Source: a bacterium
GTDB lineage: Bacteria; JAJRZV01
Length of the DNA: 6,489 bases
Assembly: GCA_024275095.1 (NCBI GenBank)
Contig: JAJRZV010000124.1
Span: forward strand, 1 to 6,489
Direction: 5' to 3'
The translations under genes and the position numbers were made by a program. A model generated the notes under the pieces. That model was not told the DNA's origin. It did no database searches and saw nothing but the letters and a program-made list of their open reading frames with translations. Positions 4,383-6,430 of this stretch are shown here, one piece after another. Positions within the stretch are counted from its first letter, which is position 1; every line of letters begins with the position of its first letter.

Positions 4383-5831
4383 CTGCTCAGGGCGGCATTT
4401 ATATACCCCAATCTCAAGAAGGCAGCGTACAGCAACCTGGGATTTGTCCGCATTGTCGCCCTGTTTGAGCGGTTTACACCCTTTCACGTCCAGGCCTTTG
4501 CACTGGATGAAATTACCCCCCGCGTTTACAGGTATCTGGAGCAGTGTGAACTCATTGCATTTTCCGTTGCCTTTGAAAACGACTTCGTCAACATAGCCCG
4601 TATTCTTTCCAGTATTTCACCTGGCAAAAGGCGCATGACCATTGCGGGTGGCGTGGCTGCATCCGCCAATCCAGAGGTATGTACAGGGCTTTTCGATGCG
4701 GTGATTGTAGGCGAAGCCGACACCGCGGTTGAAGAGATTACTGATGCAATCATACCCTATCTAACATCCCGCGCGGACAGAGAAACAGCCCTGGAGCGCC
4801 TTGCTGCTACGGGTTACGTGTACGTTCCAGAAGGCTACGAATTTCGCTTTGGAGAACAATTTCGTATTGCAAAAGCTGATCCCCGTCCTGGCTATCCAGC
4901 GAAAGTTGCCTGGAGAAGGGAAATGCACTCATGGCAGCCTGCATTTCGTGAGGCCGTGGGCAGAGGGGTCGAATTTGGCGAGCACTTCCTCATTGAAATT
5001 TCACGTGGCTGTCCCTTTCGGTGTCGGTTTTGCCTTCCCGGAAATGTGTGTGGTGCCCAGCGTGACGTGCCTCTCGATGTGATTCTTCAGAACATCGAAA
5101 AGAGTCGGTCCCGCTCTGCAGCACTCGTAGCCCCACTTCCATCAGCCCACCGCGCTTTCAGGGAGTTGTTGCATCGGCTTGTCGAAAAAGGCGTATCCGT
5201 CACCGTTTCATCACTGCGCGTGGAGGATGCACGGGAGGACATTCTTGCTCTCCTTGCAAAGAGCGGGATGCGTACACTCACGCTTGCTCCAGAAACAGGA
5301 AATGAAATCCTTCGCAGAAAACTCGGCAAACTCTTCAAAAATGAAGAAGTAATAGAGGCTGCTGTCAGAGCAGAGAAGGCAGGGTTCAGGAACGTTAAAC
5401 TCTACTTCATGGTGGGCTTTCCCGGGGAGACCCCGGACCATGTGAAGGAATCTGTTGAATTTGTTGTGGAGATCAAGTCCCGGCTCAAACGTGCGCGTCT
5501 TTCGGTCGGCATTGCGCCTTTTGTACCCAAGCCTCACACACCGTTGGAAAGGCAGCCCATGAAAAGAGTGGAAGAACTGCAGGCGGCATACCGCCTCTGG
5601 AAGAAAGTGGAAGCGAAAGGCATCCGCCTTAGCAGCGAATCCATTAAATCTTCCCTTGTTCAGGCACTGCTTTCAACAGGCGGCAGGTGGGTTGCTGAAT
5701 TCGTCACTGCTGCTGCACGTGAGAATCCTTCCAGGGCATTGAAAAAGCACTCCGTCATGCTGGAACAGTGGGTTTACCGCCCCAAGGAAGAGCACGAAAT
5801 CCTGCCCTGGCACTTTATACGCGCCCGGTGA
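4383..5831 (+). CDS. Radical SAM enzyme with N-terminal B12-binding-like domain, function unknown
   Basis: The protein has 482 residues if it starts at CTG 4383. The first in-frame ATG (4635) would remove 84 residues that look genuine: FIYPNLKKAAYSNLG near the start, LIAFSVAFENDFVNIARIL about 57-76, and IAGGVAASANP about 87-97. Together with FDAVIVGEAD (about 104-113) they resemble the Rossmann-like N-terminal domain of B12-binding-type radical SAM proteins. The radical SAM core follows: ISRGCPFRCRFC carries the CxxxCxxC cluster ligands Cys210, Cys214 and Cys217, then LAPETGNE (301-308) and YFMVGFPGET (341-350). An LPW motif near the end (474-476) recalls a family of uncharacterised radical SAM proteins (TIGR03960-like, from memory). 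It should bind a 4Fe-4S cluster and cleave S-adenosylmethionine, but the substrate is unknown. The gene follows ftsZ by 17 nt, so it is probably in the operon. Confidence 0.9.
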   Translation: MLRAAFIYPNLKKAAYSNLGFVRIVALFERFTPFHVQAFALDEITPRVYRYLEQCELIAFSVAFENDFVNIARILSSISPGKRRMTIAGGVAASANPEVCTGLFDAVIVGEADTAVEEITDAIIPYLTSRADRETALERLAATGYVYVPEGYEFRFGEQFRIAKADPRPGYPAKVAWRREMHSWQPAFREAVGRGVEFGEHFLIEISRGCPFRCRFCLPGNVCGAQRDVPLDVILQNIEKSRSRSAALVAPLPSAHRAFRELLHRLVEKGVSVTVSSLRVEDAREDILALLAKSGMRTLTLAPETGNEILRRKLGKLFKNEEVIEAAVRAEKAGFRNVKLYFMVGFPGETPDHVKESVEFVVEIKSRLKRARLSVGIAPFVPKPHTPLERQPMKRVEELQAAYRLWKKVEAKGIRLSSESIKSSLVQALLSTGGRWVAEFVTAAARENPSRALKKHSVMLEQWVYRPKEEHEILPWHFIRAR

Positions 5832-6108: not shown

Positions 6109-6124
6109 GAATGCAATCACACAC

Positions 6125-6198
6125 GTGCCCGTAGCTCAGCAGGACAGAGCGCAGGACTCCGGATCCTGAGGTCGCGGGTTCAAATCCCGCCGGGCACG
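6125..6198 (+). tRNA. tRNA-Arg, anticodon CCG
   Basis: The cloverleaf closes fully. The acceptor stem GTGCCCG (6125-6131) pairs with CGGGCAC (6191-6197), with discriminator G at 6198. The D stem is GCTC/GAGC. The anticodon stem CAGGA/TCCTG (6152-6156 and 6164-6168) encloses loop CTCCGGA with anticodon CCG at 6159-6161, which reads the arginine codon CGG. The T arm is GCGGG-TTCAAAT-CCCGC (6174-6190). CCA is not encoded, since G198 is followed by GTAAG, so a CCA-adding enzyme is needed. The last part of this gene is repeated 221 bp downstream, as expected of a tRNA used as an integration site. Confidence 0.95.
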
Positions 6199-6200
6199 GT
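6177..6200 (+). repeat. att-like direct repeat, copy 1 (3' end of tRNA-Arg)
   Basis: These 24 bases run from the T stem through the acceptor stem to two bases past the discriminator. They recur identically at 6398-6421. With one mismatch the match extends 3 bases further left (6174-6200 against 6395-6421). Tyrosine integrases commonly target this part of tRNA genes and leave such a duplication. Confidence 0.75.
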
Positions 6201-6255
6201 AAGTGCGTATTTGGGTATGTGTGGGGGGTGGTATATACGTGCGAGAACCCGCGAC

Positions 6256-6293
6256 AGCCGGAGGCTCGTATTGGGAGTTCCGCGTAGCGGAAC
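6256..6293 (+). repeat. Two adjacent short perfect hairpins
   Basis: AGCC-GGA-GGCT (6256-6266) is followed ten bases later by GTTCCGC-GTA-GCGGAAC (6277-6293), a 7-bp perfect stem with a 3-nt loop. Neither is followed by a T run, so they are not obvious terminators. They resemble the palindromic units found in intergenic repeats or recombinase-folded single-strand sites. Confidence 0.5.
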
Positions 6294-6304
6294 GCCATAT
6301 AAAT

Positions 6305-6390
6305 TGAGCGAGCGGTGGTATCAAGGCACCTCTGTGGCATTTGATTTATTTGAAGCATCAATAAGTGAGCGAGCTTGCGCGTGAGCGAGC
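6305..6390 (+). repeat. Three TGAGCGAGC direct repeats
   Basis: TGAGCGAGC occurs at 6305-6313, 6366-6374 and 6382-6390. The last two share GTGAGCGAGC and are spaced 16 bp apart, just left of the second tRNA-end copy. Their closeness to an att-like core is what arm-type integrase or excisionase sites would look like, but that role is inferred. Confidence 0.45.
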
Positions 6391-6397
6391 GTGTGCT

Positions 6398-6421
6398 GGT
6401 TCAAATCCCGCCGGGCACGGT
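6398..6421 (+). repeat. att-like direct repeat, copy 2
   Basis: This is an exact 24-bp copy of 6177-6200. The D arm, anticodon arm and 5' acceptor strand of a tRNA are absent before it, so it is only a tRNA 3' fragment and not a second tRNA gene. Confidence 0.75.
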
Positions 6422-6430
6422 TTATTTTTT
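6421..6430 (+). terminator. T-rich tract after the second tRNA-end copy, possible original tRNA terminator
   Basis: TTTATTTTTT directly follows the second copy, while no T tract follows the real tRNA gene. If the 221-bp segment was inserted, this tract once sat immediately after the tRNA and may have ended its transcript. The hairpin before it is weak, so the terminator call itself is tentative. Confidence 0.25.

Follow-up and report, generated by a model that had tools for sequence, protein, structure and literature searches.

The tRNA-Arg(CCG) Locus

The window, i.e., the whole stretch of 6,489 nucleotides that was analyzed, is an entire contig (C97) of a bacterial genome bin, which consists of 136 contigs (2.45 Mb) and is 97% complete. 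At 4383-5831 it carries a frame for a radical SAM protein that resembles TIGR03960, far below the cut-off. This frame is open from a CTG behind a GAGGTGA motif and may therefore start at that CTG. Only distant homologs of this neighbor were found (at most 33% identical), and no close relative of the host was reached through them. Near the right end of the window lies an intact tRNA-Arg(CCG) gene (Rfam match at 6125-6198), followed by the features listed in Table 1.

The 3′ end of this tRNA gene is duplicated. As pointed out in a preliminary description of the window, a 24-mer at the end of the gene has an exact second copy downstream, and the match extends to 27 nt with one mismatch (6174-6200 and 6395-6421) at a spacing of 221. 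An exact match of 24 nt inside 300 nt is far beyond chance. Further copies of the 24-mer, for which a search had been proposed, were sought with 3 mismatches allowed, and the 2.45-Mb assembly holds these 2 sites only. The enclosed segment (6201-6397) contains no convincing ORF, in agreement with its earlier portrayal as non-coding; a search for other genomic copies of it, which had been proposed, found none in the assembly. In addition, no Rfam family was found in the insert, a stable RNA fold was not supported (z-scores of -1.1 and -0.5), and searches of phage, plasmid, and viral collections returned nothing useful. A weak Rfam match to Plastid-ycf2, below the cut-off, is the antisense of the tRNA and was rejected.

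Table 1. Features at the tRNA-Arg(CCG) locus (window positions).
Feature	Position	Strand	Basis
tRNA-Arg(CCG), intact, without encoded CCA	6124..6199	+	ARAGORN; Rfam RF00005, 70.9 bits
Direct repeat 1, T-loop to 1 nt beyond the tRNA gene	6177..6200	+	Repeat search
Spacer from the tRNA to the inverted T-arm	6201..6244	+	Sequence; homologous spacers at three Ser loci
Inverted T-arm copy GAACCCGCGAC, complement of GTCGCGGGTTC at 6171-6181	6245..6255	-	Sequence comparison
Hairpin 1, AGCC-GGA-GGCT	6256..6266	+	Sequence; same position at other loci
Hairpin 2, GTTCCGC-GTA-GCGGAAC	6277..6293	+	Sequence; predicted folds
ATATAAA, counterpart of the left-module ATATAAT	6297..6303	+	By eye at the window locus
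Body with three direct TGAGCGAGC boxes (6305-6313, 6366-6374, 6382-6390)	6305..6390	+	Repeat search
Right boundary box AGCGAGCGTGTGC (consensus AGCGMGCnnGTGC), adjoining repeat 2	6384..6396	+	Comparison of units
Direct repeat 2, displaced tRNA 3′ end	6398..6421	+	Repeat search
T-rich tract after repeat 2	6421..6430	+	Sequence

The preliminary description mentions neither the inverted T-arm copy nor the two hairpins and the three TGAGCGAGC boxes. Several of these parts could be given a tentative role. The inverted T-arm of the window is short (11 nt), and some other tRNAs match it equally well or slightly better than tRNA-Arg(CCG). Hairpin 2 is probably the counterpart of the GC-GGA-GC structure found at other loci, and the three TGAGCGAGC boxes are possible protein-binding repeats. 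Downstream of the displaced copy comes TTTATTTTTT; an unoccupied site would read tRNA-Arg and then TTTATTTTTTAAGG. The T-rich tract, in which a terminator scan called no transcription terminator, would represent the original downstream DNA of tRNA-Arg(CCG).

Displaced 3′ Ends at Six tRNA Genes

The genome was searched by queries and by targeted stretches, and the downstream flanks of all 43 tRNA genes were read. Six of the 43 have their own 3′ end repeated 208-237 bp downstream in direct orientation, namely (offset in bp, repeat length in nt) Arg-CCG (221, 24), Arg-TCT (211, 23), Ser-GCT (237, 26), His-GTG (208, 76), Leu-CAA (237, 20), and Leu-GAG (234, 26). The repeat starts at the T-loop GTTC or at adjacent G's, or 3 nt later in the case of Leu-CAA. 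At five loci its end lies anywhere from 1 nt short of the gene end to 4 nt beyond it, whereas at His it extends 54 nt beyond the gene. When all tRNA 3′ ends were used as queries, with the identical Gln copies entered once, the assembly yielded the six displaced direct copies plus a single inverted one (Leu-CAA); beyond these six, no tRNA 3′ fragment was found displaced in direct orientation. Since these six short displaced copies are the only ones, the assembly is devoid of long tRNA islands of the ordinary type whose ends are intact. Among 80 distinct control tRNA genes from other genomes, none has a repeat of at least 17 nt within 400 nt, and neither a displaced 3′ end nor the left module described below was present. 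Three tail matches of 14-16 nt in other genomes look like neighboring tRNA genes and were discarded. It was also observed that tRNA genes seem enriched close to contig ends, at distances of up to a few hundred bases (C113, C59, C53, C88, C89, C97, C98, C100, C77, and C131), perhaps because these loci vary between strains.

The preliminary description had proposed an attachment-site scar or a miniature element, with the enclosed DNA as a remnant, a non-autonomous satellite, or the inner boundary of a tandem integration. The anatomy of an attachment site is borne out by the repeat from T-loop to gene end, by the T-rich tract after the displaced copy, and by the same layout at six tRNA genes. With regard to the three options, a miniature non-autonomous element fits best and a random deletion remnant is unlikely, because the spacing is uniform, the intervals have internal parts in common, and no longer tRNA-bounded interval is present in the assembly. 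A related explanation, in which each interval is the scar of a longer tRNA-integrated island that was shrunk by deletion, agrees with the flanking repeat, which is the normal signature of an island (PMC4383910). However, all six scars would have to fall within the same narrow range of lengths and to retain common interior parts, and no intact or half-decayed long island was detected by the same criterion, which makes this explanation very unlikely. The window locus may be the inner boundary of a larger tandem element, with the contig ending 68 nt after repeat 2. The main element that had been placed to the right of the window was not recovered; the contig end matches no other contig, and since the contig stops at 6489, sequence farther right is unreadable. 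No phage-type integrase that could belong to such an element was detected in the bin.

The Left Module and the Right Boundary Box

The left module consists of an inverted copy of the T-arm, a small hairpin, GAGCGGAGCGA (with a GGA triloop), and ATATAAT, in this order; the GAGCGGAGCGA hairpin has a longer stem, of 7 bp, at Leu-GAG and in the window. The inverted T-arm is found in all six intervals and at about ten further tRNA loci, and the left module is present at about 16 tRNA genes and absent from 26 others. The GAAC of the inverted T-arm lies 32-88 nt past the tRNA gene, usually at about 70 nt. At 12 of 16 loci, the best or tied-best match of the inverted T-arm is the tRNA beside it, e.g., at Trp (28 nt with one mismatch) and Tyr (21 nt, exact), and at several loci the match extends to both sides of the loop. 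A sequence model of the left module has 13 strong matches in the genome (one locus is common to C59 and C129, which overlap by 76 nt), and all 13 are beside tRNA genes. The module was not found in 386 other genomes, none of which is related to the host below the level of domain, where two partial matches cover the T-arm half of the model only.

At the other end of the unit, a box with the consensus AGCGMGCnnGTGC directly precedes the T-loop GTTC of repeat 2 in most of seven units, the seventh being a decayed right end at Gln-TTG. A search pattern written for the right boundary recovers only 2 of the 7 units and is thus not permissive enough to serve as a census. Repeat 2 is confined to loci that have an inverted T-arm (P about 6e-4 to 2e-3). 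About ten left modules are without a repeat 2, and the left module can therefore persist alone.

Modules of this kind, standing without a second repeat, would be expected if the left module were a tRNA trailer or regulatory structure of the host, and the direct repeats came from occasional tandem duplication or gene conversion. The stem of hairpin 1 varies in sequence while its pairing is usually kept (combined P = 0.008 against shuffles), and the 76-nt His repeat resembles a local duplication. On the other hand, the units have no common RNA fold (RNAalifold gave no pair on the left-module alignment), and a transcribed complement of the T-arm would disturb the tRNA. The repeats begin at the T-loop in six different genes, 26 other tRNA genes do without the module, and its distance from the gene is variable. 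A host trailer is thus an unlikely explanation. An artifact of assembly or amplification is suggested by the draft state of the assembly, by the position of several tRNA loci near contig ends, and by the ability of chimeric amplification to create inverted repeats, but diverged copies of one module occur at more than 12 loci with different flanks, and several of these loci are inside long contigs (C86 and C39). We give this explanation almost no credence.

Extent of the Unit and Tandem Occupation

The left limit of the unit can be estimated from the Ser loci. A spacer of 57-59 nt is homologous among Ser-GGA, Ser-TGA, and the second unit of Ser-GCT; the score of the Ser-GGA spacer against either of the other Ser spacers was reached by 0 of 200 shuffles, whereas the DNA upstream of these Ser tRNA genes has little or no similarity. 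Since the spacers are homologous and the upstream DNA is not, the spacer seems to travel with the unit, as would be expected if insertion involved the complete segment between the T-loop crossover and the boundary box. The Ser loci suggest that the spacer in the window likewise belongs to the inserted unit. By eye, the non-conserved spacers and bodies (e.g., L057, L086, L087, and L070) are strongly strand-biased, some being rich in G/T and poor in C and others rich in A/C and poor in G, as if from a replication-strand mutation bias.

To the right, the displaced copy at Leu-GAG is followed by a small hairpin and a T-rich tract. The DNA after repeat 2, in the window as well as at Leu-GAG, is as expected for original downstream DNA of the tRNA gene. 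At Ser-GCT, another spacer and a second left module come after the displaced copy, with no gene-bearing island. This second module reads as an older unit that would have been displaced by a newer one. At tRNA-Gln(TTG), two contigs (C24, L086; C121, L087) have exactly 141 nt in common, a stretch that covers the tRNA and the inverted T-arm and beyond which one contig enters a unit and the other does not. This fork in the assembly graph may represent strain variation or two copies of the gene.

Proposed Mechanism and Candidate Enzymes

The interval in the window is, on balance, probably a member of a family of non-coding integrative units of ~210-240 bp, which insert into tRNA genes by site-specific recombination at the T-loop. 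The data show the repeat anatomy, the common parts, the tRNA association, and the uniform length, and the assembly yielded neither longer tRNA-bounded intervals nor a phage-type integrase; past or present movement of the units, the chemistry of the crossover, the roles of the inverted T-arm and the hairpins, and the enzyme are inferred. A unit would start with a copy of the T-loop-to-3′-end sequence of the tRNA. Integration at the T-loop would split the tRNA gene, and the unit would restore a complete tRNA while the original 3′ end is pushed ~0.2 kb downstream, where it would appear as repeat 2. The unit itself would be a near-bare attachment site, composed of an inverted T-arm core, two hairpins, ATATAA, GAGCGAGC boxes, and the AGCGMGCnnGTGC box at the crossover. 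The GAGCGAGC boxes are candidate recombinase arm sites or accessory-protein sites, and the inverted T-arm is a candidate second core site. Mobilization would occur in trans, through host Xer proteins or through an integrase encoded outside the bin.

The repeats of tRNA-gene integration usually start in the T-loop, and those described here run from the T-loop GTTC in six tRNA genes of differing identity. A regenerated gene with a displaced fragment is the signature of tyrosine-recombinase integration into a tRNA gene (Islander, PMC4383910). However, several observations argue against integrative units. The bin yielded no phage-type integrase, about ten left modules stand without a repeat 2, an inverted T-arm that fits both sides of the loop is not produced by one T-loop crossover, the His repeat that ends 54 nt past the gene fits a duplication equally well, and the inverted T-arm in the window is not specific to tRNA-Arg(CCG).

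The tyrosine recombinases of the bin are two PF00589 proteins, a XerC-like and a XerD-like one (the names rest on sequence and context rather than on a curated model), and both are encoded outside the interval. The XerC-like gene precedes an HslV-like ORF, which is the usual XerC neighborhood. The host thus has a XerC-like and a XerD-like protein, as a Xer-dependent element would need. No phage-type integrase was found in the bin, and the genome has no PF00078 match; a retroelement was rejected for want of a reverse transcriptase. Because the only tyrosine recombinases are Xer-like and a reverse transcriptase is absent, the mobilizer would be Xer or something missing from the bin. The ATATAAT-GCGCG part was compared by eye with a dif-like site, a reading that was abandoned, and no dif-like or attC consensus was recognized by eye in the units. 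The XerD-like gene overlaps an ORF that, judged from its sequence, reads like a CCA-adding enzyme (L053, 273-2478; C129); despite this ORF, tRNA-Arg encodes no CCA.

Relation to Known Elements

Like the tRNA-gene islands of Islander (PMC4383910), the units combine a complete, regenerated tRNA gene with a displaced 3′ fragment pointing in the same direction; a T-loop-to-end repeat and tandem occupation are also common to both. Islander islands are multigene and carry an integrase gene, and their lengths peak at 13.6 and 39.9 kbp (PMC4383910). In contrast, the units are ~0.2 kb at 6 of 6 loci and gene-free, with neither an integrase gene nor any ORF of note in 6201-6397, contain a conserved inverted T-arm and hairpins, and occupy many different tRNA genes as a single family. 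The units resemble miniature inverted-repeat transposable elements (MITEs) in that they are short, non-coding, multicopy, and presumably mobilized in trans. MITEs, however, have terminal inverted repeats of their own and short target duplications, whereas the ends of a unit are 20-76 nt of its own tRNA sequence, and the boxes at its two boundaries do not form an inverted pair.

Alternatively, the units could be non-autonomous transposon copies, which would find the tRNA through a T-arm-matching guide RNA, as CRISPR-associated transposons (CASTs) do, or through a HUH transposase acting at GTTC beside hairpins. CASTs home near tRNA genes with delocalized crRNAs and, like the units, have a tRNA-matching stretch inside the element beside a hairpin (PMC11656645). 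Such a T-arm-matching stretch is present in each unit, its position is most often similar, and the right end of the unit adjoins GTTC. CASTs nevertheless differ from the units in carrying Tns and Cas genes and in inserting with a constant spacing relative to the target match, whereas the inverted T-arm here ranges from 32 to 88 nt past the gene. Moreover, the units duplicate the tRNA 3′ end, unlike CAST and HUH systems, and have neither paired terminal repeats nor a short target duplication. The transposon explanation is therefore quite unlikely.

Elements that use XerC/XerD and the attC sites of integrons are gene-poor and have inverted core sequences. The units share both properties and could likewise act in trans with host enzymes. 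Xer-using elements and integron sites recombine at dif or at attI/attC, and not at T-loops.

Integration into tRNA genes usually involves multi-kilobase islands that bring their own integrase, and no description of such short tRNA-bound units was found in the open-access literature searched. The units are rated as a new variation on tRNA-gene integration, so far from one deep-branching bacterium. If the integrative reading is true, a gene-free unit of ~0.2 kb shows how little DNA tRNA-gene integration needs, makes the responsible enzyme testable, and represents a minimal attachment site of natural origin. A further question would then be how the sequence of an element is fitted to each tRNA gene in both orientations. 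A bolder version, possible though rather doubtful, is that the units form a ~0.2-kb class of mobile DNA, i.e., a near-bare attachment site with the T-arm in both orientations, which is re-templated for each tRNA gene by a Xer or single-strand route and in a single lineage has entered more than one third of the tRNA genes.

Other Repeats in the Genome

A dispersed repeat with the core GGGGTCTGGTCTCAACATTTGACATTCGGGG is present on contig C77 (L092, L125, and L126) and in about 20 other places. C77 carries the same 141 nt at both ends, in inverted orientation, and the repeat also lies downstream of several tRNA-Leu genes and of tRNA-His. Two more dispersed repeat families, with about ten copies each, reach the contig ends of C131 (L129) and C81 (L124).
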